Source: Acidobacteriota bacterium (lineage in GTDB: Bacteria; Acidobacteriota; Vicinamibacteria; Vicinamibacterales; 2-12-FULL-66-21). From it: a stretch of DNA of 64,000 bases. Both the position numbers and the translations under genes were made by a program. The notes under the pieces are model-generated. The model was not told the DNA's origin, searched no databases, and saw nothing but the letters and a program-made list of their open reading frames with translations. Position 1 is the stretch's first letter, and every line of letters begins with the position of its first letter. The DNA lies in assembly GCA_003222675.1 (NCBI GenBank), contig QHWT01000084.1:26095-90094 (forward strand). Reading direction: 5' to 3'. Below, piece after piece: positions 26,248 through 40,839 of this stretch.

Positions 26248-26498
26248 ATGGCGCGCCAAGAAGCACCGCCTCAAGGACGACGACCAGGCCGTCCCCCTGT
26301 TCACGATGAAGCCTGGACGAAGGTTACGGTTGTACCAACATCCGCGCGCACAGCGGCGCGGCGATCAGCCGCGCGCAACTGATCCGCGCGTTGCTGGATG
26401 CGGTTGCCGACGCGGACGTCGACTTGACGTCTTCAATGTCAGAGGCGGATTTGAAGGCGACGATCCTCGCGAGACTCGGGCATCTCAATTCTGAATAG
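26248..26498 (+). pseudogene. Small RGRPP-motif protein with internal deletion and frameshift
   Basis: The first frame reads MARQEAPPQGRRPGRPPVHD then EAWTKVTVV and breaks down. The second frame resumes with TNIRAHSGAAISRAQLIRAL and continues as an alpha-helical tail to TAG at 26496-26498. I recall short proteins in which an RGRPPVHDE..TKVTVVL start leads directly into a helix-turn-helix-like segment with AISRAQLIRALIDAL, so about 40 bases plus a frame change appear to be missing near 26330. Probably a decayed small DNA-binding (ribbon-helix-helix-like) protein; the family link is from memory. Confidence 0.5.
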
Positions 26499-26629
26499 CC
26501 CGCACAGCGGCTACGGCGCGGCAAGCGCCGTTTCGTCCAAGCTGCACGGCAGGCCAGCCGGCCGGCAGATCCGAGGTCCGCCAACCATCCTCCGGCAACC
26601 GTCCTCCCGCAACCGATCTACGATGGGGC

Positions 26630-27025
26630 ATGCGCGCGCTGCTGCTCGTGACTGGCGTGCTGTTCGCGTTTTGGCAGGCATCGACTGAATACGTGCTCGT
26701 CAAGCCGGGTTCGAAGGAATATCACCGGCCCGGGTGCGATGTGGTGCGCGACGCAAAGGATGTCGTGGCGATGACGCGCGCGGAAGCGGAATCGCGAGGC
26801 CTGAAGCCGCATGCCGCGTGCGATCCCGACAAGGCGCCTTCCGCAAAGAGCGGCGCGCCCGCAGTGCAGTACGTGTTCGTCGAACTCGGCGACAAACGCT
26901 ACCACCGCGCGACGTGCCCGAAGCTCGGGAAGTCGCACGAGCGGATCACTCTCGCTGCCGCGGCGGAGAAGAAGTACTGGCCATGTCCCGTCTGCAAGCC
27001 GCCGATCCGTAAACGCGCCGCATGA
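26630..27025 (+). CDS. Exported protein with two YHR..C repeats
   Basis: 131 aa. Signal peptide LLLVTGVLFAFWQAS. The mature chain has two copies of a cysteine module: KEYHRPGCDVVRDAKDVVAM ending in PHAAC, and KRYHRATCPKLGKSHERITL ending in WPCPVCKPP. This YHxxxC...C pattern resembles the small metal- or DNA-binding module found at the C-terminus of some secreted nucleases. The ATG overlaps no neighbour, but the stop overlaps the next start by 4 bp, so the kinase gene is co-translated. Confidence 0.6.
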   Translation: MRALLLVTGVLFAFWQASTEYVLVKPGSKEYHRPGCDVVRDAKDVVAMTRAEAESRGLKPHAACDPDKAPSAKSGAPAVQYVFVELGDKRYHRATCPKLGKSHERITLAAAAEKKYWPCPVCKPPIRKRAA

Positions 27026-27507
27026 CGCCCGAAGTGGCGATCCTCGTCGGCCTCCCCGGCGCGGGAAAGTCCACGTTCTATCGGGAGCGGCTCGCCGCAA
27101 CCCACCGTCACGTGAGCAAGGATCTCCTGCAGAGCGCGAAGAACAAGCAGACGCGACAGGATGCCCTCGTCCGCGAGGCGCTGAAGGCGGGGCATTCAGT
27201 GGCAGTCGACAATACCAACGTGTCTCAGGCGGAGCGTGCAACTGTGATCGCCATCGCGCGGGAGCTCGGCGCGCGCGTCGTGGGGCATTACATCGAGGCG
27301 ACCACGCGCGAAGCGGTCGCACGAAACGAACGTCGCGAAGAAAAGAAGGGGCGCGTGCCGAAGGTCGCCATCTTCACGTGCGCGAAACGACTCGTGCCAC
27401 CGTCGCTCGAGGAAGGATTCGATGCGCTGCACACCTGGCAGGTGACGGTGGACGGCGCGTTCGTCGACATCACCAACCACCAAATCACTAAATCACCAAA
27501 TTACTAA
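27022..27507 (+). CDS. P-loop kinase of PNK/zeta-toxin type
   Basis: 161 aa. Walker A GLPGAGKSTFYRERL near 9-16 and the DNTNVSQAERATVIAIA motif near 61 mark the polynucleotide-kinase 5'-kinase-like AAA_33 family; the arginine-rich lid is RNERREEKKGRVP. Substrates in this family range from RNA/DNA ends to small molecules. The last residues (ITNHQITKSPNY) are encoded by an AATCACCAAATCACTAAATCACC-type repeat, so the original C-terminus has been altered. Start overlaps the preceding stop by 4 bp. Confidence 0.82.
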   Translation: MTPEVAILVGLPGAGKSTFYRERLAATHRHVSKDLLQSAKNKQTRQDALVREALKAGHSVAVDNTNVSQAERATVIAIARELGARVVGHYIEATTREAVARNERREEKKGRVPKVAIFTCAKRLVPPSLEEGFDALHTWQVTVDGAFVDITNHQITKSPNY

Positions 27508-27522
27508 ATTACCGAAATCACC

Positions 27523-27570
27523 AATTCCCCAATTCCCCAATTCCCCAATTCCCCAATTCCCCAATTCCCC
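27523..27570. repeat. Six perfect copies of AATTCCCC
   Basis: The 8-bp unit AATTCCCC is repeated six times without mismatch (48 bp), directly following an AATCACCAAATCACTAAATTACC degenerate array at 27478-27522. Sits between convergent gene ends. Slippage-prone simple repeat; no spacers, so not CRISPR. Confidence 0.9.
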
Positions 27571-27774
27571 TCACTCTCCGCCGGCCTCTCCTGCGCGGCG
27601 CTTCGCGCGCGCGGCGGCACTTGGAAAAGCGACGATCTTCGCCTCCCGCTTGGGGCGTGCGACGAGCCATGTCCGGCCGCACGCCTCGCACTCGTACTCA
27701 TGCAGATCGTGGACGGGCAGCCTGGCCTTGATTTGGGACGATTGGCAGAATGGACAGAGAGTGGGACCAGGCAT
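27571..27774 (-). CDS. Small zinc-ribbon protein (67 aa)
   Basis: MPGPTLCPFCQSSQIKAR then YECEACGRTWLVARPKR: two CxxC knuckles make a zinc ribbon, followed by a basic, Ala-rich tail. GGAGG lies 8 bases upstream of the ATG at 27774, a clear ribosome site. The gene overlaps the end of the upstream isomerase-like gene by 77 bp in another frame. A basic ribbon of this size suggests nucleic acid binding; no specific role is known. Confidence 0.72.
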   Translation of the reverse strand: MPGPTLCPFCQSSQIKARLPVHDLHEYECEACGRTWLVARPKREAKIVAFPSAAARAKRRAGEAGGE

Positions 27775-28705
27775 GTGCAGAGCCTCCGATAAGGCCACGA
27801 TCCAGTGTTTTTCCTCGCTCGTCTGAATGCAATTGGGCGATCTCGGCCATGCGATCGGATCCCGCCGGAATGGGGTATTCGAACTCGATGGTCGCCTGGA
27901 TGTTCCACTTCTTGTCGCGAAGCAGTTGCAGCACTTCTTTAATCGGTGTGTCCCCTTCCCCGAACGGCACGTTCGGCCCCTTGTTCTTCTTCCGATCCTT
28001 CACGTGCACATGCGTGATTCGATCGTGATACTCGGTGATGAACGGCAGTGGTGACGTGTTGTTCCCCGCGACGAAGTGCCCGATATCGACGTTGGCGCCG
28101 TTATACTTTGCTTGTTTGAACGCCGCCTCCCAGTGTTCGGGCGCGGTTTCAGCGTGGCCATGGTAACCGACCATCAGCTTGTGCTTGTCGGCGAATTCTC
28201 CCACCCGCTTCGTGCCGTCTGCGGAGATCTCGCAGGAAATCGCGCGCGCGCCCACGGTCTTCGCGAGGGTGAACCCATAGTCGAGTACGTCGTCAGTCAT
28301 GTTGTAGATGCCGTCCAACTTGAGGATCTCGATTCTGACGCCGGCGTCCTCCCAGTGGTTGCGAAGCGCCTTCGCCTTGTCCATCGACGCTGACAGCCGT
28401 GGCTGCCTGAGCGCATCGACGTCAGCTTTCTGCGACGCTCTGCGCAGCAGTTCCGTGGGGACGCCCATGAACGCTTCGACCGGCTGCGAACGCAATTCGA
28501 CCGCGCTCACCCCGAGTTGAACGCAGTCGCGCAGCGTTTCATCCGCTGGCATCAGGTTGTTCCCGAAGCTGTATGGGACGTTCAGCCCGATCTGGACACC
28601 GTTGATCTTCGAATCGGGTTTGGCTTGAAAGCGAATGAGGGAAGCCGCCGGGACTGCCAACGCCATCTTGCCGAGCTCGCGTCGTGTATACAACATCAGC
28701 GACAT
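27698..28705 (-). CDS. Exported sugar-phosphate isomerase/epimerase-like TIM barrel
   Basis: 335 aa as read. The start (LYTRRELGKMALAVPAASLI) carries a twin-arginine motif and hydrophobic core, so export by Tat is likely. The AP endonuclease-type TIM barrel shows GLNVPYSFG near 40, CEISADGTKR near 156, VGYHGHAETAPEHWE near 178, ANVDIGHFVAGN near 205 and THVHVKDRKK near 231, the metal-binding His/Glu/Asp pattern. The family normally ends at ..SDRMAEIAKCIEYCR. Here MAEIA is followed by an unlike tail, whereas dropping one C near 27835-27837 restores CIQTSEEKHW in another frame. So a frameshift at the 3' end is suspected. Confidence 0.8.
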   Translation of the reverse strand: MSLMLYTRRELGKMALAVPAASLIRFQAKPDSKINGVQIGLNVPYSFGNNLMPADETLRDCVQLGVSAVELRSQPVEAFMGVPTELLRRASQKADVDALRQPRLSASMDKAKALRNHWEDAGVRIEILKLDGIYNMTDDVLDYGFTLAKTVGARAISCEISADGTKRVGEFADKHKLMVGYHGHAETAPEHWEAAFKQAKYNGANVDIGHFVAGNNTSPLPFITEYHDRITHVHVKDRKKNKGPNVPFGEGDTPIKEVLQLLRDKKWNIQATIEFEYPIPAGSDRMAEIAQLHSDERGKTLDRGLIGGSAHAWSHSLSILPIVPNQGQAARPRSA

Positions 28706-28737
28706 ACTAGTCGGAACCGGCGCGAGTTGTCATTGCA

Positions 28738-28860
28738 AGGATGATCGCCGCCTTCGCGGCTTCGCCGCTTCGGCGCGACGGAGTTCACGCGCTGGGGAAG
28801 TCGCTTGCCCTGTCGAGACGAAGCTCGCCGTAAGGCGAGGGAAGTCCGGCCTTCGCGGTT
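28738..28860. repeat. GC-rich interspersed repeat
   Basis: CTTCGCGGCTTCGCCGCTTCGGCGCGACGG and AAGCTCGCCGTAAGGCGAGGGAAGTCC-like words form small hairpins in the divergent gap. Similar words occur at 40645-40735. No gene seen. Confidence 0.5.
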
Positions 28861-28876
28861 CCATCGCTGTTCAATC

Positions 28877-29905
28877 ATGATCGTGCTCGTCAGTGTGGTT
28901 GCGCTCGTCCTTGCCGCAGGCGTCCTCTATCAGTTCGTCGGGGCACGAGCCAGCGCACGGCGATATACGGCGCCGGGCGTGATGATCAGCGTTGAGCGGC
29001 AGCGCCTGCACGTGGTCTGCGCAGGGGACGGTCAACCACAAGTGCTTTTTGAGTCCGGGATCGCTGCGTCGTCGCTGAGTTGGGCGAGCGTGCTGCCCGA
29101 GGTCGCGACCTTCACGCGCGCATGTGCGTACGATCGCGCCGGGCTGGGCTGGAGCGCGCCCTGTAGAGGGGCGCGGACCGTGCCGCGGATGCTGTGCGAA
29201 TTGGACGGCGTTTTGGCCGACGCAGCGAGAACAGGACCAGCTGTGTTGGTCGGCCACTCGTTTGGTGCCCTGCTCGTTTGCGCCTACGCCGCGGCGAGTC
29301 CGACCGCCATCGCCGGCCTCGTGCTGCTCGATCCACCGAGCGAGTGGCAGGCGATCACGCGAGAGCAGGCGCGCCTGCTCCGGGGAGGCATTCACCTCTC
29401 GCGTATTGGCGGCATCCTCGCGCGAATTGGAGTCGTGCGCGCGTGTCTTGCCCTCTTGACCGGGGGAGCGCCAGGCGTTCCACGAAATGTGGTACGTGTT
29501 TTTGGACCTACCGCCGCTCGCACACTGGAGCGACTCGTTGGCGAAGTGCAAAAGCTGCCACCAGACGTGCACCCCGTCGTGCAGGCGCTGTGGTGTCAGC
29601 CGAAATGCTTTCAGGCGATGGCCAGTCACCTGGCCTCTCTTGAAGAGACTGCGGCGGTTGCGAGTCGCGTCACATCGCTTGGCGATGTTCCCCTCGTGAT
29701 CATCTCGAGCGGCGACCAACCGCCAGAAACGATCGCGAAGCATCGACAGCTGACGCGTCTGTCATCGCAGAGCCGCCACATCGTCGCGACCAACAGCGGA
29801 CACTGGATACAGTTCGATGAACCGGCGCTCGTAATTGCGGCCATTCGTGACACTGTCGAGCGCGTGCGCCGCACGAGTGAGGGAACAACCGGGAGCGGTC
29901 TCTGA
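28877..29905 (+). CDS. Membrane-anchored alpha/beta hydrolase
   Basis: 342 aa. N-terminal anchor IVLVSVVALVLAAGVLYQFV, then an alpha/beta hydrolase with HVVCAGDGQPQVLFESGIAA, the nucleophile elbow VGHSFGAL near 124, an acid candidate in IISSGDQPPE near 278 and the catalytic His in NSGHWIQFDEP near 306. Similar to lipase/peptidase-type hydrolases tethered on the periplasmic side. Substrate unknown. The ATG at 28877 was chosen because the earlier start would add a repeat-encoded segment. Confidence 0.8.
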   Translation: MIVLVSVVALVLAAGVLYQFVGARASARRYTAPGVMISVERQRLHVVCAGDGQPQVLFESGIAASSLSWASVLPEVATFTRACAYDRAGLGWSAPCRGARTVPRMLCELDGVLADAARTGPAVLVGHSFGALLVCAYAAASPTAIAGLVLLDPPSEWQAITREQARLLRGGIHLSRIGGILARIGVVRACLALLTGGAPGVPRNVVRVFGPTAARTLERLVGEVQKLPPDVHPVVQALWCQPKCFQAMASHLASLEETAAVASRVTSLGDVPLVIISSGDQPPETIAKHRQLTRLSSQSRHIVATNSGHWIQFDEPALVIAAIRDTVERVRRTSEGTTGSGL

Positions 29906-29930
29906 GGATGCGGTCTTACGATTCTAAATT

Positions 29931-30896
29931 GTGACGCGCACCGTTCGTTTGCTGCTCCTCGTGTTCGGTCTCAGCGTGGTGGCGTTTCTCGTCTGGCGCG
30001 CCGGCCCGCGTTTCCTATGGGCCATGCTCGTACGCACCGGCTGGAGCTTCCTAGCCGTGGTGGGGATTTACGCACTCCATGTGGGCGTCCGCGCCGCAGC
30101 GCTGTGGCGAACCATGCTGGGCGGACGTGTCCGTCTTGGGGACGTGCTGCGCATCCGGCTAGCAGGCGAGGCTGTGGAGATGCTCACCTTCACGGGACCG
30201 TTCATCGCGGAACCGGCGAAAGGATGGCTCCTGACGCGTCGCGGGTTGACGCCGGCCGATGCGTTCGCAGCGGTCGTCACCGAATATCTGCTCTACACCG
30301 TCGCTTCTTCATGGCTGGCAATTGTCGCGTTGTGGCTGCTGCTCGCTCGGGGCACGCTTCCCCCAGGCGTCCAATCCGGCGTTGTGGTCGTTATCGCTCT
30401 CACGATCGCGTTCCTGGGCGCGTTCGCGTTTGCGGCGATCAGTGGCATTGGCCTAATCGTACCAGTCCTGCGGGCCTCGCGCGTCGTCATCGGCGCGCGG
30501 CGGGCCGAGCGGGCGGCTCACGGATTCAGCCGCGTCGAAGATGCGATCCTCCATTTCCTCCACGAACATCGCGGACGCCTCACAGAAGTGCTCGCGATCG
30601 AGACCGCGGCGCATCTTCTTCTCGTACTCGAGATCTGGATCGTGCTCGTAGCCCTTGGAACATCGCATTCCTGGAACCAGCTCCTCATCATCGAAGGGGG
30701 CGTGAAGTTCGTCCCGATCGCGTTTGCGTTCATTCCCGCTCAGTTCGGTGCATTAGAAGGCGTCCATGCCCTGCTCGCCGCCGCGATCGGACTACCTGCT
30801 GCGGTCGGGCTCACGCTGGCGCTCGTGCGGCGCATGCGTGGTCTGCTCGTAGCCGCGGTTGGCGTGGTCGTCTTGGCGTTCTCGAGTGATCGGTAA
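29931..30896 (+). CDS. Flippase-like integral membrane protein (LPG synthase TM type)
   Basis: 321 aa with about eight hydrophobic helices. The pattern AGEAVEMLTFTGPFIAEPAK near 77-96 and IPAQFGALEGVHALLAAAIG near 272 match the lysylphosphatidylglycerol synthase transmembrane (UPF0104-like) family, whose members flip or modify lipids; no synthetase domain is attached. GTG start 25 bp after the hydrolase stop. It lies just upstream of the polysaccharide block, so a lipid-linked role there is possible but unproven. Confidence 0.78.
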   Translation: MTRTVRLLLLVFGLSVVAFLVWRAGPRFLWAMLVRTGWSFLAVVGIYALHVGVRAAALWRTMLGGRVRLGDVLRIRLAGEAVEMLTFTGPFIAEPAKGWLLTRRGLTPADAFAAVVTEYLLYTVASSWLAIVALWLLLARGTLPPGVQSGVVVVIALTIAFLGAFAFAAISGIGLIVPVLRASRVVIGARRAERAAHGFSRVEDAILHFLHEHRGRLTEVLAIETAAHLLLVLEIWIVLVALGTSHSWNQLLIIEGGVKFVPIAFAFIPAQFGALEGVHALLAAAIGLPAAVGLTLALVRRMRGLLVAAVGVVVLAFSSDR

Positions 30897-31232
30897 TGTG
30901 GGTGGCTGGCGGCAGCCGCATGCCGGTTGGCGTGACCTGCCAACGATCCAACAGCGATGGTGCGGCTCGCCAGAATTCAAGTCCAGAACTTCACGATTTC
31001 ACGGCTCAGATTCCACACGGCAGAGCTTTGCTTCGGGGTCGATCTGTCCGAGTTGCTCTCGCAGATCAGCGCGAGATGCGACGTGGATCTCCTGGCGGCA
31101 GGGCCCAAACGCGATCTGGCGCCGCTGACTTCGCTGACGGCGGTCAGCGGATACTGCCCAGATCCATTGCGGCGTGCGTTCGATTTTGTACGGAATGCCG
31201 ACGCGAACCTTTGCCAAAGCCGCGAAAAAGAT
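30897..31232. other. 336-bp gap upstream of membrane-fusion gene
   Basis: The frame of the next gene is open from 30957, with an ATG and fairly GC-rich third positions, so a longer protein (about 92 extra residues, no recognised motif) is possible. No ribosome site is seen at 30957. A weak TTGCGG/TACGGA pair is near 31166-31193. I treat it as a leader region with a possible upstream start. Confidence 0.4.
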
Positions 31233-32636
31233 ATGGCACAGCTGTTGCCTCTGCCGTTTCCGATGAGCAGCGAACTCCCCACACCACCCGTCACGGATTT
31301 TGTCCGGCCACACACGGGCCGGTCGGCAAGAGCGCGTGAACTTGTCGACGTTCAGGAAAGGTTCCAGCACGCACAGGCCGTTTACGACGAGTACCAGGCC
31401 ACACGCCCTCCACAGCCCGCGATCGAACCGTCCGCGGCCGCGACGCCTGTCAACGCTGCACCGGTAATTGTCAGCAGCGTCGAGCCGCCGACTGTCGCGG
31501 CGAATGCCCTGATACGCCGATCATGGCTATGGGTGACGGCGCTGGTCTTCGCCGCGTCGATGAGCAGCCTGGGGGTCGCGCACTACGAGCTGCGAGGCGG
31601 CACGCTGGCGATGCAGGCTGGTGCCATCGAGGGCACCGTGTTCGAGGGTACGATCCAGCCCGCCACGACGTTCGCGATCGCGGCGCCGGCAGGCACGATC
31701 GTCCGGCAGGTGCTCGTGGCGGTCGGCGATCGTGTCGCCGAAGGGCAGCCTCTGCTCGTGACGGACGACCGTGATGCGATCGCGGCCCGTGATGCTGCGA
31801 CCCTCGAAGTTCGCGCGGCGCAAGCGAGGCTCGACGACCTCGGTGCGAAGCTCGCGACCATCGATCGCACACCCGTGGAGGAGCTGGTGCTCGCATCCGC
31901 CCGCCTGTCCACGGCTGAGCGCGAGGTCACACAGGTTCCAACGCGGCAATGGCGCGATTCGCCCGAACGGGCGCAGGCGGCTTACGATCAGGCAAAGCTC
32001 CATGCCGATCGATTGCAGAGGCTGTTCGACCAGGGATTGATCGCGCGGCAGGAGGTCGAAGACGCGCAGATTGCGGCTCGCGTCGCGCAGGACGATCTCG
32101 TCAACGCGCGCCAGGCCGCGGCGGCCGGTACATTGGTGCGGACCGCGCAGTCGGAGCACTCCGACGTGCAGCTTCGAGTCGCACGCGCCGACCGGGAGCA
32201 ACGGCGGCTCGACCTGCGCGGCGAGCTGCGGACCGCGCGGGTCCTACGCGAACAGGCTGACTACCGGCTGAAGATAGCCGACGAACACATTCGCGCCTGC
32301 ACCATCACCGCGTCGGCTCCGGGCGTTGTCATCGAATTGCCGACGCATGCGGGCGATCAGGTGTACGCGGGCGCGCCACTCGCGCGACTGGCAGTTCTCG
32401 ACCGGCTGATCGCCGAAATGCAGGTCGCAACATCGTTGGTCAATGTCCTGCGGCCTGGTGCCTCAGCGCGGGTACGGCTGCCGGGCTTTCCGCCTGTGGA
32501 CGCGAGCGGAACGATTGCGACGGTCAATCCGATTCCCAACCGGAACGGCAATTACGTGGTGACGGTGCGCTTCGAGAACCGCACCGGACGCGTACTCGCG
32601 GGCCAACTCGCGGAAGTTCGATTCATGCTGCCATGA
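31233..32636 (+). CDS. HlyD-like membrane-fusion protein of exopolysaccharide block
   Basis: 467 aa. A Pro-rich cytosolic N-terminus leads to one transmembrane helix near 97-117 (SWLWVTALVFAASMSSLGVA). Next come a half lipoyl domain (APAGTIVRQVLVAVGDRVAEG), a long coiled-coil hairpin (about 170-320, rich in Ala/Arg/Gln), the second half lipoyl (ITASAPGVVIELPTHAGDQV) and a beta-barrel end (ASGTIATVNPIPNRNGNYVV). This is the periplasmic adaptor architecture. It overlaps the PelF-like gene by 4 bp. In Pel and alginate systems such adaptors link inner-membrane synthesis to export, so this is probably the envelope connector here. The start could be 30957. Confidence 0.75.
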   Translation: MAQLLPLPFPMSSELPTPPVTDFVRPHTGRSARARELVDVQERFQHAQAVYDEYQATRPPQPAIEPSAAATPVNAAPVIVSSVEPPTVAANALIRRSWLWVTALVFAASMSSLGVAHYELRGGTLAMQAGAIEGTVFEGTIQPATTFAIAAPAGTIVRQVLVAVGDRVAEGQPLLVTDDRDAIAARDAATLEVRAAQARLDDLGAKLATIDRTPVEELVLASARLSTAEREVTQVPTRQWRDSPERAQAAYDQAKLHADRLQRLFDQGLIARQEVEDAQIAARVAQDDLVNARQAAAAGTLVRTAQSEHSDVQLRVARADREQRRLDLRGELRTARVLREQADYRLKIADEHIRACTITASAPGVVIELPTHAGDQVYAGAPLARLAVLDRLIAEMQVATSLVNVLRPGASARVRLPGFPPVDASGTIATVNPIPNRNGNYVVTVRFENRTGRVLAGQLAEVRFMLP

Positions 32637-34177
32637 GGGCGCGGCCGCTCCGCGTGCTCATGACGACCGAGGGAACGTATCCCTTCCACGGCGGCGGCGT
32701 CTCCACGTGGTGCGACGCACTGATCTCTCATCTGCCTGAGATCGATTACACGCTGCTGGCGGTCGCTATGCACCCGTACGTGCAAAAGCGCTATCAGCTG
32801 CCCGCGAACCTACGCCGATTGGTGACGGTGCCGCTCTGGGGCATCGAAGAGCCCGCGGAGTATTCCTGGGACGTCCCGTTTTCCGAGCTCCTGCGACGCC
32901 GCTGGTCGACCACGTCGATGGTGATCGGCAGCGAATTCATTCCGGCCCTCGGCTCCTTCTTCGAGCTTGCGCTACAGGGTGGCGCGGACACCGATGCGCT
33001 CGCAGCCGCGACGCTCCATCTGCACGAATATTTCGTGCGCTACGATTACCACTACGCGCTGCGAACGCCGGACGCGTGGAAGTGTTTCCAGACGGTCGTG
33101 GCGTCGCTTCGCGCCCGCGGCGCGCTCGACGTCGTCGAACCAACGTACGCGGAGCTGGCCGAAGCGCTGCGCCTCTTCTACCGTTTTCTCCTGGTGCTCA
33201 ACGTCCCGGTACCCGATGCCGACGTCCTGCACTCGACTGCCGCGGGCTTCTGCGGGCTGCCATGCGTGATCGGGCGGCTCTCGCGCGGCACGCCCTATCT
33301 GCTGACGGAGCACGGCGTCTATCTGCGGGAGCAGTATCTCAATCTGCGCCGGCAAGTCCCATCGACGTTTGTTCGCACGCTGCTCTATCGGCTGATGGAA
33401 TCGGTCGTGCGGCTCAATTACGCGGCGGCCGACCAGGTGTCTCCAGTGTGCGATTACAACACGCGCTGGGAGGGATGGCTTGGTGTACCCGCCGCACGCA
33501 TCCGGGTCGTTCACAACGGCGTCGATCCAGCGCGATTCGCGCCGCCAGAAGCGCGGCTGCCCGGACCTCCGCGCGTCGTCAGCGTCGGACTGATTTATCC
33601 ACTGAAAGGGCAGCTCGACTTGATCGAGGCGGCGGCGGCGGTCGCGCGTGAACGTCGTGACGTGCAGTTCGAGGTGTACGGCTCGGCCAGCGATGAGAAG
33701 TACTACGCGGAGTGCCTGGCACGGGCACGCGAACGACAGCTCGACGACGTCGTTCATTTTCGCGGTCCCACGCATACGCCTTGGATCGCCTATCAGCAAG
33801 CGGACGTTGTCGTCTTGCCGAGCATCTCCGAGGCGTTTCCGTACGCGATGATTGAAGCCATGCTGTGCGGAGCGGCGATCGTGGCCACCGATGTCGGCGG
33901 CGTGGCCGAGGCGCTCAGAGGATGCGGCGTACTCGTCCGGCCTGCGCGTCCTCAGGAGATGGCTGATGCGATTCTCGAGCTGTTGAACAGTCCGGCCGAA
34001 CGGCAGCGCCTGGGCACAGCAGCACGCGCACGTGCGCTTCAACAGTTCACGCTGCAGACGATGCTTGACGGCTATCGCGAAAGCTACGCGCGTTTAGCGG
34101 GTGAAGCGCCCGCGGCGGCGGACGGTATCGATGTGGATGACGCCGGCGGATGTCGGTCGCTGGAACCCGTTGTGTGA
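32633..34177 (+). CDS. pelF: PelF-like GT4 glycosyltransferase
   Basis: 514 aa, the size of PelF (about 507). The N-terminal TTEGTYPFHGGGVSTWCDAL is the PelF hallmark; YLLTEHGVYLREQYLNLRRQ and ICVV-like NGVDPARF follow. The C-terminal GT-B donor domain shows VSVGLIYPLKGQLDLIEAA and the E-x7-E type motif SEAFPYAMIEAML. PelF uses UDP-GalNAc to build the Pel polymer in the cytosol, so a galactosamine-type polymer is the first guess. The last 84 bp overlap the convergent glycosidase gene; the tail DGIDVDDAGGCRSLEPVV is probably not conserved. Confidence 0.85.
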   Translation: MRARPLRVLMTTEGTYPFHGGGVSTWCDALISHLPEIDYTLLAVAMHPYVQKRYQLPANLRRLVTVPLWGIEEPAEYSWDVPFSELLRRRWSTTSMVIGSEFIPALGSFFELALQGGADTDALAAATLHLHEYFVRYDYHYALRTPDAWKCFQTVVASLRARGALDVVEPTYAELAEALRLFYRFLLVLNVPVPDADVLHSTAAGFCGLPCVIGRLSRGTPYLLTEHGVYLREQYLNLRRQVPSTFVRTLLYRLMESVVRLNYAAADQVSPVCDYNTRWEGWLGVPAARIRVVHNGVDPARFAPPEARLPGPPRVVSVGLIYPLKGQLDLIEAAAAVARERRDVQFEVYGSASDEKYYAECLARARERQLDDVVHFRGPTHTPWIAYQQADVVVLPSISEAFPYAMIEAMLCGAAIVATDVGGVAEALRGCGVLVRPARPQEMADAILELLNSPAERQRLGTAARARALQQFTLQTMLDGYRESYARLAGEAPAAADGIDVDDAGGCRSLEPVV

Positions 34178-35131
34178 CGAGGCGATCGGACCGGTGAACG
34201 ACGAGCGCGACACGGCCGCGGGCATCGACGGACGTCCGCGCCACGGCAGTTGGCTATCAGTCGCACTGAACGACGGCTCACCCCATCCAAAGGCATCCAC
34301 GCCCGCCATGACGGCTGCCCACCACGCGTAATTCAACAGCGACCGATCGAAGTCGAACGACCCGGCGGTTGCCGTCGCGAACACGGACGCGCCCGTGGCG
34401 GCGGCTCCCCTCATCGCGCGCTCGACGCGATCGCACCACGCATGAGGGTCCTCGGCTACGCCCTGGCGAATCATGAAGGACTCGAGCAGGTACGCGTCGC
34501 CTGCCTTCAGTCGCGGCGCGACGCCCTCAGCCGTCACCGAGAACGCGTCGTCGGGATTGAACGCGTTCAGCAGTACCCGAAGTCCCGCGCGGTGCACCGC
34601 ATCAACGGCCGCGTTCTGGCGATCGCGAGTAACGCCAAAGTCGGTGCCGGCTTCATCGAAGAGAATGCCACCCGCTCCAATTGCCTTCCACCGATCGATG
34701 CGCGTGCGGATTTCGTCCAGCGTCAGCTGCTCGGTCCGGCCGAGATCGATATAGCCGAACACGATGGGTTTGCGGCGCGTCGCCGCCAGCTTCGCAATTA
34801 GCGCGGCCGTTCTGCGATACTCGACGGCGCCCACACCGGCTGGACGGCGCGAGGCCACGACATCATCGAACTCGAGTCCGTCTCCCAACACGATGAATTC
34901 ATAGTCCGCGAAGACGGCGGCCGCGCGGGCGAGGTCGCCGGCCGCGCCGTTCACCAGGCTCGGAATGCCGTAGTAAATCGCGAGCCTCCTCGGCTCGACG
35001 ACACGCGACGCCGCAGCCTGCAGCAGATCGGAGAGCACGAGGCTTGCGACGATCAGCGCCGCGCCGTATCCGACGCACGATGTCCGGGGGTCAGCCACGG
35101 ACGCGGAACCGGAAGATGGTGAGCTGCTCAT
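34094..35131 (-). CDS. Sph3/PelA-type endo-galactosaminidase-like glycosidase
   Basis: 345 aa as drawn. A hydrophobic export segment (YGAALIVASLVLSDLLQAAA) precedes a TIM barrel: LAIYYGIPSLVNGAAGDLAR, FIVLGDGLEF, IVFGYIDLGRTEQLT, GGILFDEAGTDFGVTRDRQN (putative catalytic acids in FDEAG.D) and LLNAFNPDDAF. This is the pattern of spherulin-4/Sph3 (GH135) and PelA hydrolase (GH166) enzymes that cut alpha-1,4-GalNAc polymers. It is last in the minus-strand operon and overlaps the preceding gene by 41 bp; GTG at 35098 is an alternative start that would leave an 8-bp overlap. Likely trims or releases the polymer. Confidence 0.75.
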   Translation of the reverse strand: MSSSPSSGSASVADPRTSCVGYGAALIVASLVLSDLLQAAASRVVEPRRLAIYYGIPSLVNGAAGDLARAAAVFADYEFIVLGDGLEFDDVVASRRPAGVGAVEYRRTAALIAKLAATRRKPIVFGYIDLGRTEQLTLDEIRTRIDRWKAIGAGGILFDEAGTDFGVTRDRQNAAVDAVHRAGLRVLLNAFNPDDAFSVTAEGVAPRLKAGDAYLLESFMIRQGVAEDPHAWCDRVERAMRGAAATGASVFATATAGSFDFDRSLLNYAWWAAVMAGVDAFGWGEPSFSATDSQLPWRGRPSMPAAVSRSSFTGPIASSHNGFQRPTSAGVIHIDTVRRRGRFTR

Positions 35132-36818
35132 CGTCGTAGTAGACGGACGCACCGTGATGCGAGCGTCCGTACGCTTCGCACAACGCGAACAGGCGTGCCT
35201 GGAGGCTCGCGCGCCCTGCAAGCGAGCGATAGTGACGATAGCTCGGGTCGGCCAGTCTCGAGAACGGCACCTCCGGCGGTTCTGCTGCGAATGTCTTGAA
35301 CGGACGTTTCTCGACGAACACCAACAGGTCGTCGACGGCGAAGTCGAAGCTGAAGTCGGGATCGGCGACGCGCTGCGCGTATCGATCGACGAAGGCCGAT
35401 GGCTCTTCGTACCATCCGCGGCCGAACGCCTCCGCGAGCTGCTCCACCGGCGCCACGATGAGCCACTTGCCGCGCGGCAAATTGGATACAATCTCGAGGG
35501 TCTTCTGCGGCGTGACCGGGTGTTCGAGGTAGAGCGCGCCGTTCGTGCGCGGAACCAGCACCACGAGCGCGCACGCCACGGTCGACGCGAGCGCGTACTC
35601 TACCTGCGCTCCTGCGAACTGGCGAACCAGCGCCGTCGCCAATGCGTAGAGCGCGCCTGCGGTCAACGCGATTGTGATCGGCAGCGTCAATGCAATGGTG
35701 CGTGCCGCATCTCCCGCCCCAGCCACTGCTGCCGCTGCAATGCACGAACACACCGCCATGCTCGCAAGGAATGCGGCACGGTACGGCATTACTGCGTGCA
35801 GGAGAACGACAGGCACGAGCAGAAGGAGGATCAGAGGCTGTGCGAGCGCTGCAGCTGCCACGCATGCGGCAGCAGTCGTGGACGAGGCGGGACGCCGCAT
35901 GGCGATCGCAATAGCTCCCAGCACGAGAAACAGTACGGCTACCTCGAGATCTCCGGGACACCATTGGCGCGTCAGCGCTTGGCGCAGAACGCGCGCGAAC
36001 TCGCCGCCGCCGTCGGTATATTTCGCGATGCCGAACGGGTAGCCGCCCAGCACCCAGAGGGTCATGACGCCGGCCGTCGGCTCTCTCGTGGCGCAACGCA
36101 CGAGCCCTGCGCACGCGATCACAAGAGACAGTCCGATGATGGGCCCTGTCAGCCGAACCACGTGAAGCGGATTCAAGGAAGACGCGCAGCTGAGCGCGGC
36201 CGCCACGGCGCTGGTGACGGGAACGAATCCTTCTGGCGCATCGAACAGCGCGCGCCGCGCGCTGAGCAGAATGGCATACGCGTCAGGGTCGCCAAGTCGC
36301 AGATCGCCGAGGACGGGTTGCACTCGCAGATATCCAGCAACCGCAAGACCAGCAGCCGTGGTCGCGGCGAGCATGGCGCTCCGATGCGGCAGCCGATCGA
36401 GCTGCCGTCGCATGCTCGTCACGCGCCCGAGAACCGTGCGACGCGCAATGTTCGGCCACTGACGCCGGAGATCGATCGAACCGTGCTGCTCGAGGCGACG
36501 GACCATCCCAATGGTCCACTCTCGCATGACCATCCGCACCGCATGCCCGGCTGCCCAGTTGTAGCGGATCAGCCACCTCGTCGCCGACCACGCGAGGATG
36601 GCGGCCAGCAGCGTCGCCGCATTGAGAATGTGGAGACGCGCGAGGATGTTGACGGCGATAACGGTCACGAGAGTCGCGCGCGCGATCAGCGCAAGACGCG
36701 CGATCGGATCGCCGAAGACGCCGCGCCGATCTGCGCTGAACGCGCGCAGGAGCACGGTAGCAACGATCAGCAGCCACGCGGTCCTCAACAGGTCGTTGAC
36801 CATGGCGTCATGCCACAT
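35091..36818 (-). CDS. Polytopic membrane protein, unknown, in exopolysaccharide operon
   Basis: 575 aa. About 10-12 hydrophobic helices fill residues 8-400, followed by a 150-residue soluble C-terminal domain (KTLEIVSNLPRGKWLIVAPV, then GRGWYEEPSAFVDRYAQRV and DDEQLTIFRFRVRG). A GDPDAYAILLSARRALF loop after an early helix and a periplasm-facing layout recall GT-C glycosyltransferases or polymerases, but no family signature is certain. It overlaps the PelG-like stop by 11 bp (ATGTGGCATGA); MVNDLL at 36803 is an alternative start. PelE, PelB and PelD are not similar by eye. It may be a polymerase or acceptor-transfer component. Confidence 0.65.
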   Translation of the reverse strand: MWHDAMVNDLLRTAWLLIVATVLLRAFSADRRGVFGDPIARLALIARATLVTVIAVNILARLHILNAATLLAAILAWSATRWLIRYNWAAGHAVRMVMREWTIGMVRRLEQHGSIDLRRQWPNIARRTVLGRVTSMRRQLDRLPHRSAMLAATTAAGLAVAGYLRVQPVLGDLRLGDPDAYAILLSARRALFDAPEGFVPVTSAVAAALSCASSLNPLHVVRLTGPIIGLSLVIACAGLVRCATREPTAGVMTLWVLGGYPFGIAKYTDGGGEFARVLRQALTRQWCPGDLEVAVLFLVLGAIAIAMRRPASSTTAAACVAAAALAQPLILLLLVPVVLLHAVMPYRAAFLASMAVCSCIAAAAVAGAGDAARTIALTLPITIALTAGALYALATALVRQFAGAQVEYALASTVACALVVLVPRTNGALYLEHPVTPQKTLEIVSNLPRGKWLIVAPVEQLAEAFGRGWYEEPSAFVDRYAQRVADPDFSFDFAVDDLLVFVEKRPFKTFAAEPPEVPFSRLADPSYRHYRSLAGRASLQARLFALCEAYGRSHHGASVYYDDEQLTIFRFRVRG

Positions 36819-38346
36819 AGCAGCCGTAACCGGGGCGCTCCAACGCGACAGCAACCGCCACGTGCGACCGCCACAGGAAGACGGCGGCACCGGCACACAT
36901 CGCGGCCGCTGCGTAGGTACTGCCGAACACGTTGCTCGACACATAGCCGCCGAGGGCGTTCACCATTACGCCGGCAACGAGTGCGCGCAGGACGGGCACC
37001 GGCGCGTTCACGCTGAACAACACGAGCGCGTTGAATAGGCCAAGTTCTAGGAGCAGGTATCCGCAGAGGCCAAGCACCATCACGCGTGAGGCGATCGGAT
37101 CCGTCAGCGTCGGACGCCCGACTGGTAGCACCAGCAGCGCGATCGCAACGAACGCGACCGCAACGAGCGCGCGCGAGCGGACACATCGGCGTTGAATGCG
37201 GGCCTGATACTCCACACCGGCCGAGGGTGTCCACCGCGACGCCTCCTGCTGCCAGAAGTGCACGAAGCGATAGTTGATGAATTCCACCGCCGCCATCGAG
37301 AGGAGGAAACACAGCAGTGCAGCGTCCATACCCGCCTGATATCGTGCGTCGATCGCGAACTCAATGCCCGCCGCAGCAGGCACCGAGGTGCCTGCCGCAA
37401 TGCGATCGGCAAAGACGAACGCGAAGTAACCGGAGCCATAGCAGAAGTACGGCGCGAGCGCGCGAACCAGGACCGCATGGCGCGGTGACGCGAGTTCACC
37501 GACCGCCGTGGCGCCATGTCGGCTGAACGCGAACGCCACCAACCCCAGCGCGATGCCGAGCGCAACCGAGACCGCCAGAATCTGCGAGACGAGAGGCGAC
37601 ACATGCACCGCGCGACACAGCGCGAACGCGGCGCCAGCGCCGCCGAACGCTGCCGGCACCTGCCAGTAACGCCGCTCGAGCCACAGCACACCACACGTGA
37701 GCCAGAACGTCCCGAGCATGATGTAGACGCCTGCGCCGAGCGCTGCGTACCTGAGCTCGAACAAATCCAGGTACCACGCCGCGCTGGTCGCCATTAATGC
37801 CGTCGCCGCAATGGTGGCGACACCGCACTGCCAGATGCGCTCGGTCACCGCGGCACCGAGCGCGTGCTGCCCGAGGCCAATGTAGAAGCTCCCTTTGCGC
37901 GCAATGCACTGCACGAAGCCGCCCGAGACGATCAGGCTCAGCATGAGCGCAAGCGTGAACGGCGCGGCCGCCTCGGGAGGCAGCTGCAGCACGTCGGGAT
38001 GCCGGCGTTCGAGCGCGAACGTGACGACCCACGGCAGTGCGTAAATAGAACTGAGGGAAAACGTCTGCAGAAGCACTCGGAGCTCGTCGCGGACGCCCTG
38101 CCTGGTCGGCACGAGGCGCGGACCCGGCTCGGCACCGTGGCCTGCTTTCATGACGGTGTGCAGCATGCGTCCCAGCGAGCGACTGTCCGGTTGCCCGGTC
38201 AATTCACGGACGACCGCGTCCGTATAGCCAAGCGACTCCAGCACGGCGGCCGCCTCGAGTGCATCCGCCGGGTGCGGGCACACCGCCGCAACGCGCTCAA
38301 TCACACGCTCGAGCGCTTCGGGCGCTGTCGAAATAACCATGTCCAT
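36808..38346 (-). CDS. pelG: PelG-like polysaccharide exporter with N-terminal extension
   Basis: 512 aa against about 456 for PelG. Residues 1-90 are a soluble helical extension (EALERVIERVAAVCPHPADA, LESLGYTDAVVRELTG). The rest has about 12 membrane helices with PelG-like landmarks: SGGFVQCIARKGSFYIG, RALAPYFCYGSGYFAFVFAD near 300, DAALLCFLLSMAAVEFINYR and a repetitive C-terminal half. PelG is a MATE/MOP-type inner membrane transporter that works with PelD-PelE-PelF. The match to PelG is by motif and topology, not exact identity. Starts 12 bp after the deacetylase stop; translational coupling with the next gene. Confidence 0.72.
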   Translation of the reverse strand: MDMVISTAPEALERVIERVAAVCPHPADALEAAAVLESLGYTDAVVRELTGQPDSRSLGRMLHTVMKAGHGAEPGPRLVPTRQGVRDELRVLLQTFSLSSIYALPWVVTFALERRHPDVLQLPPEAAAPFTLALMLSLIVSGGFVQCIARKGSFYIGLGQHALGAAVTERIWQCGVATIAATALMATSAAWYLDLFELRYAALGAGVYIMLGTFWLTCGVLWLERRYWQVPAAFGGAGAAFALCRAVHVSPLVSQILAVSVALGIALGLVAFAFSRHGATAVGELASPRHAVLVRALAPYFCYGSGYFAFVFADRIAAGTSVPAAAGIEFAIDARYQAGMDAALLCFLLSMAAVEFINYRFVHFWQQEASRWTPSAGVEYQARIQRRCVRSRALVAVAFVAIALLVLPVGRPTLTDPIASRVMVLGLCGYLLLELGLFNALVLFSVNAPVPVLRALVAGVMVNALGGYVSSNVFGSTYAAAAMCAGAAVFLWRSHVAVAVALERPGYGCYVA

Positions 38347-38358
38347 GACCCAATCGTC

Positions 38359-40248
38359 TCAGGGCCAGGCGACGGTCTTCGTCTGTCCCGCAGCGAGCGT
38401 GACGTATGCGATGGACTGCCCCGCGTACGATTCCGCGCCGTGAATCTTCAGCCCCGTGATGGGGGCGACTGCATCCCTGTGGGCCGATAACACGAGGCCG
38501 ATGTCAGGCACCAGTGTCGCAGTGACGCCCGCCGCGTTGTACCGCTCGCGCGCGATCATGCGATCACCGACGGTTCTCATCGTGGGGCTCAGAATCGGGA
38601 ATCTCACGAGGCGGCGGTATTTCGCGGCCGTCAAGTTGATCAGATCGCCCAGCAGCGAGTGCGTGCCGTCATACGAGCGCGTGTTCGGCTGATGGAACAT
38701 GAGCGGGTTGAGGTCGCCGTTCAACAGGTACGACAGCCATGTATCGCTGATGTTGTCCAGGACGTCCTGATACGTGAAGTCACGTCCCCAGTAGCTGCGG
38801 TACACGCAGTTGTATTCCGCAACCCACTCCGCCGGCGTGCTCACGTTGAAATACATGTTCGTCGGATATCGGGGAATCATGAACAACCCGGCTGCAAGGG
38901 GATTCCAGAGTCCCGTGTTCGGCGTGGGATTGCTGTACCCGGGTTGCGATGTGTCAGTGACGACGTAACGGACGCCGAGGGCGTAAGCGGTGCGCATCCC
39001 GTCCGGATTCTTGAGACCCGAGACGTCCGGTGTCACCAGCGTCGTGGGATCCGCTCCGAGCTTGAGTTTTTTGCCCATCCAGCTGTTGAGCCGCAGCTCC
39101 TCCGCGACGTCCGAAGACGACATCGTTTCCCACGATTCGTGGTCCCACGTGTGGCTCACGAAGTAAAACAACGATGCATTCCTCGTCACGATCGTCGTTA
39201 GATCGTCCGCGGCGTACACGCCGCTGGCACCCCATCCGTTGAACGCCCAGGTGATCTTCACGCCCGAGGTCTGGGGTTGCCTCTGAAGCTGCGTCTGCCA
39301 TGCGATCAGTGCGGCATAGTCCCTTGCCCGCATGCGGTAGTCGCTGGACGTCCGATCGACTGGCGTTTCACACGGCGTATCAGCCGACCACATCTGATTG
39401 GCCAGGAACAAATCGTCGACCTGCGGACTCATGTACGCGTGACGCTCGCCAAGGAACAGGCCCTTCATTACCCAGTTCACGAGGTCGTAGCCGAGCACCA
39501 GGTTGTGCCTCAGGTAGGGATTGCTGTCGAAGGTCAGCGCGAGAAGCTCACGGCCGTCCGGGAATGTCCGCGTAGCGGCAAGCACGTGTCCATCGCCGTC
39601 CATCAGGAGCGGAACCGTCGCGAGATCGAACGCGGTCGTCAGATACGTGTATGCATTGGCGATCGTGATCGGATTCGAGGTATTCACGCGCGCGAATACC
39701 GCCGCACCATCGCGCGTAAAGCGAGCCTGTAGCGGCGCCAGCGTCGTATCAAGGGCGCCAGACGGCCAGTTGAAACCCATGGCTGGCGAGGTCCAGCCGC
39801 TGTACCAGATAAGCTCCCGTGTGCCGAATTGGGCGGCATAGGCATCAAGAGCCGCCTGCTCACCCGGCTCGAACGCCGTCTGATACGTGCCGTCCGCAAC
39901 CTGATAAACCAGGTCGCCCGTCGTAAAGATGATGCCTCGATAGAAACCATGGCAGCCGTTCGACAGCCGTCCCGGCGTCATCGCCGGCTCCTGCGCGGCA
40001 ACAACGAGGTCGTAAGGAGTGCCGAGATAGTCGAGGGTGCGCTGGATGGCGGGAAGGTCAGCTTCTTTGGCGTCTGCAGACATGACAAGAAGCTTCAGGT
40101 CGATGCCGCACGTGCTTTGAACGGCGCTGACCGTTGAGCCGGACAGGGGTCCCGCGGCAATCGCGAGCCCGACGGCCGCCGTGGCGGCCTTGAGAAATCG
40201 GTTGAACGAACGCCGACGATACGGTTCCGTCGCAGGTCGAATGCGCAT
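38359..40248 (-). CDS. Agd3-like (CE18-type) polysaccharide deacetylase, Tat exported
   Basis: 629 aa. Residues 11-40 (RRRSFNRFLKAATAAVGLAI) form a twin-arginine signal. Residues 50-260 resemble the CBM87-type carbohydrate-binding domain of fungal Agd3 (LKLLVMSADAKEADLPAIQR). The NodB-like deacetylase part follows: MT1-type YMSPQVDDLFL (DD at 278-279), MT2 SHTWDHESW (H366 and H370 as HxxxH) and IPRYPTNMYFN. Agd3 removes acetyl from N-acetylgalactosamine in galactosaminogalactan. A C-terminal beta domain (about 560-629) ends the chain. GGAGAAG 7 bases before the ATG at 40248 fixes the start. First gene of the minus operon with the PelG-like gene. Confidence 0.78.
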   Translation of the reverse strand: MRIRPATEPYRRRSFNRFLKAATAAVGLAIAAGPLSGSTVSAVQSTCGIDLKLLVMSADAKEADLPAIQRTLDYLGTPYDLVVAAQEPAMTPGRLSNGCHGFYRGIIFTTGDLVYQVADGTYQTAFEPGEQAALDAYAAQFGTRELIWYSGWTSPAMGFNWPSGALDTTLAPLQARFTRDGAAVFARVNTSNPITIANAYTYLTTAFDLATVPLLMDGDGHVLAATRTFPDGRELLALTFDSNPYLRHNLVLGYDLVNWVMKGLFLGERHAYMSPQVDDLFLANQMWSADTPCETPVDRTSSDYRMRARDYAALIAWQTQLQRQPQTSGVKITWAFNGWGASGVYAADDLTTIVTRNASLFYFVSHTWDHESWETMSSSDVAEELRLNSWMGKKLKLGADPTTLVTPDVSGLKNPDGMRTAYALGVRYVVTDTSQPGYSNPTPNTGLWNPLAAGLFMIPRYPTNMYFNVSTPAEWVAEYNCVYRSYWGRDFTYQDVLDNISDTWLSYLLNGDLNPLMFHQPNTRSYDGTHSLLGDLINLTAAKYRRLVRFPILSPTMRTVGDRMIARERYNAAGVTATLVPDIGLVLSAHRDAVAPITGLKIHGAESYAGQSIAYVTLAAGQTKTVAWP

Positions 40249-40752
40249 CGCTTTCTTCTCCCAGGGCATCAGTTCGTCAATAACGCTCCCTCGGGTGCCC
40301 GCAAACGCTCGCAGTCGCATCGCGGATCGCCACTATGCGAGGTGCATATGCATGAGGTGTACCTGCTGAGGTCTGGCTGGGCTGTAAGGCCAATGTCCAG
40401 GTCAATCAGGAGAAAGTTTTCCGGACGGAGACCATGGTGGCGACACGTATTGGATGGTGAGCGGTGAAACAGCGATGAGCGGTCCCACCCACACATGTGG
40501 TGAGTGATCGCCCAAGCCCACGGACTGGGCAGACGCCAGGCCGCGGATCGCACAGCGGAAAGTTGCGACAGGTGTCGGCGTGAGGCCCTTCGACTGGCGC
40601 TCGTTCAGAGTGTTCGATCTATCACGGTGGAGACTCGGCCTGCCACAAGGCGAGGCCGCGAAAGCGTCGGAGTAGCCCGCTTCGGGTGAAGTCCGCCTCC
40701 GCGGCTCACGCCGCTCCGGCGCGACAGCCTTCGCGTGAATTATGAGCGAGTT
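40249..40752. other. 504-bp regulatory gap upstream of exopolysaccharide operon
   Basis: Must hold the promoter for the deacetylase-PelG-like operon. I find no convincing -35/-10 pair, riboswitch fold or gene. The part at 40645-40735 is a GC-rich repeat (CAAGGCGAGGCCGCGAAAGC, CGCGGCTCACGCCGCTCCGGCGCG) like that at 28738-28860. A TTGACC on the minus strand near 40400 lacks a good -10 partner. Confidence 0.5.
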
Positions 40753-40839
40753 TGGTGCGGAAGGGGGGATTCGAACCCCCACGGTATTGCTACCGCCAGC
40801 CCCTCAAGCTGGTGCGTCTGCCAGTTTCGCCACTTCCGC
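40753..40839 (-). tRNA. tRNA-Leu (anticodon GAG)
   Basis: Minus-strand cloverleaf: acceptor GCGGAAG/CTTCCGC, anticodon stem CCAGC/GCTGG with loop TTGAGGG (anticodon GAG), a long variable arm typical of Leu, T arm GTGGGGGTTCGAATCCCCC-like, discriminator A and encoded CCA. 87 nt including CCA. Confidence 0.93.

Follow-up and report, generated by a model that had tools for sequence, protein, structure and literature searches.

A candidate PelF–PelG–GT-C branch of Pel-type polysaccharide machinery in an Acidobacteriota bacterium and its relatives

Pel and galactosaminogalactan (GAG) are positively charged polymers from the biofilms of bacteria and fungi. A stretch of 64,000 nucleotides from contig QHWT01000084.1 of an Acidobacteriota bacterium (assembly GCA_003222675.1; hereafter the window) carries six genes reminiscent of the machinery for such polymers at positions 31233–40248, which raises the question of whether this locus is a cut-down pel operon or a system in its own right. 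The initial annotation had opted for a reduced Pel/GAG-like locus, in which a membrane-fusion protein (MFP) and an unknown polytopic protein replaced PelB, PelC, PelD and PelE. The six open frames were indeed present where that annotation had put them, all intact, and the cluster likely encodes an apparatus by which a partly deacetylated galactosamine polymer is synthesised, trimmed and exported. As a whole, the explanation that we favour, and consider rather probable, is that it belongs to a PelF–PelG–GT-C branch of Pel-type machinery (hereafter the branch), in which the sugar, direction of flow, GT-C donor, passage of the outer membrane and freedom from cyclic di-GMP control are inferred.

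The PelF-like glycosyltransferase of the window scored 154.5 bits against NCBIfam NF038011, which was the top of 40 families and well over the curated cut-off of 100, while the next-best GT4 family reached 106.6 bits; a score of 149.9 bits was obtained with DUF3492. Because NF038011 outscored the other GT4 families, the name PelF could be retained. The protein displays an E-x7-E motif at residues 400–408 and a lysine (residue 325) in PLKG, both of which presumably fulfil their usual motif roles. In a PelF tree, the seven classical PelFs made up one side of a branch with support 90/98, and 48 PelFs of the present branch were separated from them by a branch with support 93/98, with one misplaced outgroup row among the latter. 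Specifically, three GT4 outgroup rows had branches of 7–10 changes and were probably mis-framed, and the row inside the branch PelFs means that one clean clade for these proteins is not demonstrated. In one locus (L090, 3–2716), PelF-like matches were spread over three frames, possibly through a frameshift or an assembly error, and treated as individual fragments.

The hydrolase, polytopic and PelG-like proteins of the window matched zero Pfam families at E ≤ 1, and their assignments were therefore drawn from relatives, profile comparison and predicted structures. For the PelG-like protein, there was correspondingly no match to PF16933 at this threshold, although eight of 17 relatives did match and three exceeded the cut-off of 29 (L049, 32.3 bits; L063, 30.6 bits; L095, 29.6 bits). 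The copy in genome G167 yielded an E of 2.1e-4 in the genome search, under the cut-off, and no match as a protein. Profile comparison with one single classical PelG was negative, after which an alignment was built of nine classical PelGs, of which one is from genome G223 and the other eight come from plasmid records, where seven are annotated pelG. Against this alignment, the profile of 22 PelG-like members matched over 414 columns (Prob 97.2, E 2.9e-11), while control comparisons of the PelG-like family with a MurJ-like flippase family (Prob 3.5, E 0.012) and with the GT-C family described below (Prob 0.4), or of classical PelG with the same MurJ-like family (Prob 10.7), remained far lower. 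The PelG identity proposed at the outset is thus borne out at the level of the family, although the window protein alone misses PF16933. The alignment to classical PelG begins at column 99 of the PelG-like family. The N-terminal approximately 95 residues of the branch proteins, which precede the classical PelG start, matched no family and hold conserved positions of their own (A34, E37 and G40 invariant, D43 nearly so). In L083 (9234–10786), the PelG-like gene was found in two overlapping frames, for which a frameshift or an assembly error may likewise be responsible, and these were treated individually.

The polytopic protein is predicted to be a GT-C transferase with the oligosaccharyltransferase (OST)/ArnT fold. 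No sequence-family match was found for it, and the prediction stems from a long structural match to GT-C structures that was clear of unrelated folds and covered everything beyond residue 144, including the globular C-terminal end, at approximately 10 % identity and with approximately 144 extra N-terminal residues. Because a protein search, in which scoring covered the 7996 candidates with the most words in common, returned only the protein itself and one relative, the GT-C family was assembled from the loci described below. Across 32 of these homologues, a single column was invariant. As a mark of GT-C transferase activity, the first outer loop carries an acidic residue, and the corresponding position was D in 19, E in 10, G in 2 and A in 1 of the 32 sequences. 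A polyprenyl-phosphate sugar might perhaps serve such a transferase as donor, given that 25 of the 29 Bacillota loci have a GT2 gene, and that the only one tested (that of L057) found DPM synthase and ArnC as its best PDB matches. Two GT-C homologues, mostly in tandem, were seen in 13 Bacillota contigs (L053, L054, L060, L064, L066–L068, L074, L077, L080, L084, L088 and L096).

The occurrence of these genes in other genomes bears on whether the locus is a reduced one. Among 247 genomes of the phylum, the DUF3492 domain of PelF was present in six, including the window genome, and the PelG-like protein in five of those six and nowhere else. The genome search with PF16933 additionally gave three short and weak PelG matches elsewhere in the phylum (G031, G036 and G182). 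The sixth genome, G223, encodes a classical PelG (431 bits) in an apparent classical pel operon (locus L031), where a separate GH114 gene lies ahead of the PelA-like gene. In the draft genome G051, PelF and the PelG-like gene were on separate contigs, and Agd3_CE was confined to the window genome (G000) and G167.

When one genome per species was scanned, the PelG-like protein of the window by itself returned no loci and the PelG-like family alignment 64, by title 33 from Bacillota, 19 from Acidobacteriota, three from Cyanobacteria, two from archaea and seven single loci of other groups. These labels were taken from the titles of mostly draft or metagenome-assembled contigs, and odd single loci, the archaeal ones too, may be mislabelled; L036 (JAIEMQ010000002.1), titled 'Cyanobacteria bacterium', was counted as Acidobacteriota because it corresponds to contig C9 of G167, a genome placed in the same taxonomic order as that of the window. 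A GT-C gene followed PelG in 47 of the 56 loci with at least 2.5 kb of downstream flank. Specifically, this held for 32/32 loci in Bacillota, 14/16 in Acidobacteriota and 1/1 in KSB1, and for none of those in Cyanobacteria (0/3), archaea (0/2), Kapabacteria (0/1) or a deltaproteobacterium (0/1). Genes within 700 bases of PelG were counted, and the deltaproteobacterial locus (L063), whose GT-C gene lies 960 bases further down, was scored as a miss on this basis.

Neighbours were counted over L033–L096 in loci with 5 kb of upstream and 4 kb of downstream flank, with L036, L048 and L094, which are contigs of L016, L017 and L019, counted once, and with L038 and L039 belonging to the same genome. 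Few seeds went into the profiles for MFP, GT2, epimerase and coiled-coil genes, and the last three of these are broad. The 29 Bacillota loci contained PelF (29), a coiled-coil-type gene (29), GT2 (25), a MurJ-like gene (20), CE4 (19), an epimerase-like gene (18) and GH114 (16), and the ten Acidobacteriota loci PelF (8), MFP (7), Agd3 (6), the hydrolase (6), GT2 (1) and an epimerase-like gene (1). Two of the three Cyanobacteria loci had PelF and two an MFP, and the Kapabacteria locus had PelF and no MFP. The coiled-coil-type gene of the Bacillota loci lies between PelF and PelG (e.g. L057, 8784–9953) and has no Pfam match; it is possible that it encodes a monoderm-specific regulator or scaffold.

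As the initial annotation would require, the same six genes as in the window were found together in eight other loci, so that their grouping exceeds chance. In six of these (L040, L043, L044, L046, L047 and L055) the genes are co-directional in the order Agd3–MFP–PelF–hydrolase–PelG–GT-C, in L042 they are co-directional in another order, and in L016 the two halves are divergent. The convergent halves, with 3′ ends of PelF and the hydrolase overlapping by 84 bp, are therefore a property of the window and not a general trait. Inside each half, neighbouring starts and stops overlap or stand 12 bases apart. Taken over many bacteria and two archaeal drafts, the recurring PelF–PelG genes appear to constitute a separate Pel branch, and the term 'reduced' had to be abandoned: the locus represents one version of a branch found repeatedly in different phyla, with a PelF apart from classical PelF.

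How such a branch might export its polymer, and under which control, can be approached from the MFP and from the missing Pel components. The MFP passed the cut-offs of both HlyD_D23 (30 bits) and HlyD_3 (with 51.1 bits), in agreement with its initial naming, and has one hydrophobic segment near residues 98–116 with an N-terminal tail of approximately 95 amino acids ahead of it. Homologues were found in the eight six-gene relatives and in L019 (= L094), L032, L045 and L083. Matches to the MFP profile were confined to Acidobacteriota and Cyanobacteria loci (0/29 in Bacillota), which fits the expectation for a part that crosses the outer membrane. Of the MFP and GT-C proteins, only the MFP is restricted to diderm groups. 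Since the predicted GT-C protein also follows PelG in monoderm Bacillota, it is not simply a stand-in for PelB, PelC, PelD and PelE as first supposed. The N-terminal domains of the MFPs differ, with an AAA ATPase in L032 (14235–16637; genome G051) and a response-regulator receiver in L045 (6321–8429; a cyanobacterium), which suggests that signals enter through these domains. No TolC-type gene was recognised within the window cluster. Elsewhere in the window genome there were 25 OEP-domain matches, often two per gene, and L019 carries contiguous genes for MFP, OEP, PelF, PelG and GT-C.

With PelD of L031 as the one query, no homologue was found in any of five branch genomes, and the query found itself in G223, consistent with the earlier statement that no cyclic di-GMP (c-di-GMP) receptor is present. 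PF16963 (PelD) matched nowhere, the control included, and is hence uninformative. PelB of L031 gave only short matches of 18–24 bits in four of the five branch genomes and none in G042, and one TPR-type match within the branch loci (in L091). PelA, PelD and PelE of L031 had no match within the branch loci, where it should be considered that PelE is poorly conserved.

The nature of the polymer is suggested by the two enzymes expected to modify it. The Agd3-like protein exceeded the cut-offs of PF25115 (108.9 bits) and PF25116 (CBM87; 35.2 bits, cut-off 27.6) and had 6nwz as its sole match in the PDB (E 2.2e-18). The catalytic motifs given for Agd3 are D377/D378, H510/H514, an arginine and H668 (PMC7229062). 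All four (CM1–CM4) are present in the window protein as D278/D279 (DD), H366/H370 (HxxxH), R460, which was taken as the CM3 arginine from its aligned place, and H519, so that the proposed Agd3-type deacetylase stands. The window as well as L016, L040, L043, L044, L046 and L055 showed the CM1, CM2 and CM4 patterns. Four of the eight six-gene relatives (L040, L042, L044 and L047) have an Agd3 frame that runs up to the end of its contig, and those of L042 and L047 are cut there before CM2. By eye, the N-terminus of the window protein resembles a signal peptide, with no segment at the hydropathy cut-off.

The hydrolase is predicted to form a TIM barrel with an Asp nucleophile (D150) and a Glu acid/base (E208) at strand ends, as in the GH114, GH166 and GH191 galactosaminidases, and its nearest galactosaminidase structures were, in order, GH191, GH166 and GH114. 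The spacing between Asp and Glu is 58, the same as in Ega3 (63 in PelA and 69 in TmGH191), these residues being compared by strand and spacing instead of superposed coordinates. The predicted structure thus supports a galactosaminidase-like hydrolase. The 'Sph3-type' part of the initial 'Sph3/PelA-type' label turned out weak: the window protein matched neither the GH114 profile nor Spherulin4 (PF12138) by sequence, and the 50 structure matches listed did not contain Sph3 (GH135). Among homologues, that of L016 scored 25.0 bits with PF12138, under the cut-off of 30.2, and 16 of 43 matched at E ≤ 0.01.

The features of the cluster, together with a tRNA-Leu gene to its right, are compiled in Table 1.

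Table 1. Coordinates of the six cluster genes and the adjoining tRNA gene within the window
Feature	Position	Strand	Basis or remark
Membrane-fusion protein (MFP), HlyD/CusB type	31233–32636	+	HlyD_D23 52.8 bits; hydropathy
PelF, GT4 glycosyltransferase	32633–34177	+	NF038011 154.5 bits; DUF3492 149.9 bits
TIM-barrel glycoside hydrolase, galactosaminidase-like	34094–35098	-	GTG start codon at 35098; hydrophobic N-terminal helix
Polytopic protein, predicted GT-C integral-membrane glycosyltransferase	35091–36818	-	alternative ATG at 36803
PelG-like exporter, extra N-terminal domain of ~95 residues	36808–38346	-	profile-profile match to classical PelG
Agd3-type deacetylase (CE18 + CBM87)	38359–40248	-	PF25115, PF25116, PDB 6nwz
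tRNA-Leu(gag)	40753–40839	-	ARAGORN; boundary of the variable segment bearing the cluster

Six contigs of the same family were compared with the window, and four carry the tRNA-Leu (L097, L099, L100 and L102). In all four, homology to the window halts at the 3′ end of the tRNA-Leu or at most 4 bases off, and secG–tRNA-Leu is kept. In L099, synteny is back at window position 26.4 kb, with approximately 8.7 kb of other DNA in between, which delimits a variable segment of 26.4–40.75 kb (26430–40752). Together with the patchy occurrence of the deacetylase (Agd3_CE in two of 40 genomes, including the window's own), this segment fits a gain by transfer. Neither a direct repeat of the tRNA-Leu 3′ end (at least 12 bases) nor an integrase was found in the window and, as the repeat is lacking, an integrase-type insertion is not demonstrated. 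The left flank contains an a/b-hydrolase gene and a gene for an LPG_synthase_TM/HpnL-like membrane protein (73 bits; 29931–30896), the latter directly upstream of the MFP gene on the same strand but not counted as part of the system, and genes resembling, by eye, secG, tpiA, pgk and gap lie to the right of the tRNA-Leu.

These data leave room for other explanations. That a classical pel operon lost PelB, PelC, PelD and PelE and is now decaying, with the locus as what is left of it, would agree with the rearranged halves and the same patchy distribution (2/40), but intact frames, conservation of the six-gene set in eight relatives and the distance of its PelF and PelG from the classical copies make this explanation very improbable and largely refute it. 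More weight, while still unlikely, can be given to a polymer that is not Pel/GAG-like, for which the branch PelF would take another UDP-sugar and on which hydrolase and deacetylase would then act. The separation of branch and classical PelF and the presence of GH168 fucanases among the nearest structures of the hydrolase point this way. Nevertheless, two unrelated deacetylase types (Agd3-like and CE4) and two galactosaminidase-type hydrolases accompany the branch in different phyla, and 18 of the 29 Bacillota loci have an epimerase-like gene (by a broad profile), all of which argues against this alternative.

A somewhat less doubtful alternative concerns the GT-C-fold protein, which might be a non-catalytic scaffold that does the work of PelD and PelE by holding PelF at PelG, with ordinary Pel synthesis otherwise. 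Its gene adjoins PelF–PelG where known systems carry PelD and PelE, of which PelE is the predicted interaction hub, and the family has just one invariant column in 32 sequences and an A or G in place of the acidic loop residue in three. Conversely, this residue is D or E in the other 29, 13 loci have two GT-C genes, and a GT2 gene in 25 of the 29 Bacillota loci, of which one tested resembles makers of polyprenyl-phosphate sugars, would be in keeping with a catalytic role.

Going beyond the PelF–PelG–GT-C branch that we favour, a bolder and only tentative model would hold that this is a PelD-free second great Pel branch, reaching from Acidobacteriota and Bacillota to archaea. PelF would then feed a galactosamine chain to a PelG with an N-terminal control domain of its own, and the OST-like GT-C protein would decorate this chain or move it to a lipid or protein anchor. 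In diderms, an HlyD-type adaptor whose sensory domains (receiver, AAA) can be exchanged would take the polymer across the outer membrane by TolC-type tripartite export, much like drug efflux. Were PelF–PelG coupled to an OST-like enzyme, with an HlyD-type adaptor in acidobacteria and cyanobacteria, control and export of such polymers could be achieved by means other than c-di-GMP plus PelB. A function is also suggested for conserved unannotated neighbours in Paenibacillus. The branch is in any case wider than the initial annotation had thought, and can be tested since cultivated hosts exist, among them Paenibacillus alginolyticus DSM 5050 (L069), P. aceris DSM 24950 (L049) and Priestia abyssalis DSM 25875 (L081).

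The cluster can finally be set against known systems. STT3/PglB and ArnT (GT-C) share with the polytopic protein the fold from residue 144 to the C-terminus, but differ in the low identity and missing family match mentioned above. The Aspergillus GAG cluster likewise combines an Agd3-type CE18/CBM87 deacetylase with a galactosaminidase, and has a fungal synthase where the cluster here has bacterial PelF and PelG. Classical Pel (pelABCDEFG of Pseudomonas, and L031 of G223) has homologous PelF and PelG and an accompanying deacetylase and galactosaminidase-type hydrolase. In contrast, PelB and PelD were not found here with one query each, PelG is extended by its N-terminal domain, deacetylase and hydrolase are individual proteins of other families, and a GT-C protein and an HlyD-type MFP are added. 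In bacteria, operons that combine Agd3 with a cytoplasmic glycosyltransferase, a protein spanning the membrane several times and GH114, and in some Actinobacteria also with spherulin-4, were reported in 2020 (PMC7229062). The Agd3-operon section of that paper names neither Acidobacteriota nor a GT-C protein or MFP, and its Gram-negative operons bear Pel outer-membrane homologues, none of which were seen here. Within the open-licence PMC literature, no paper was found that ties PelF–PelG to a GT-C or HlyD-type protein. Gram-positive Pel (pelDEADAFG of Bacillus cereus) resembles the branch in its PelF–PelG core, its separate deacetylase and the apparent lack of PelB and PelC (PMC7112168, PMC13254593). 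It differs in having PelD (c-di-GMP), PelE and a CE26 deacetylase, where the branch has a GT-C gene after PelG, joined in Bacillota by a coiled-coil gene and CE4. Gram-positive Pel with PelD and PelE is established (PMC7112168), and Pel was judged uncommon among 41 strains of Paenibacillus surveyed for the classical gene set (PMC9956331). Gram-positive loci with only pelF and pelG have been found as well, according to a supplementary-figure legend (PMC7112194), and these may include the present branch.

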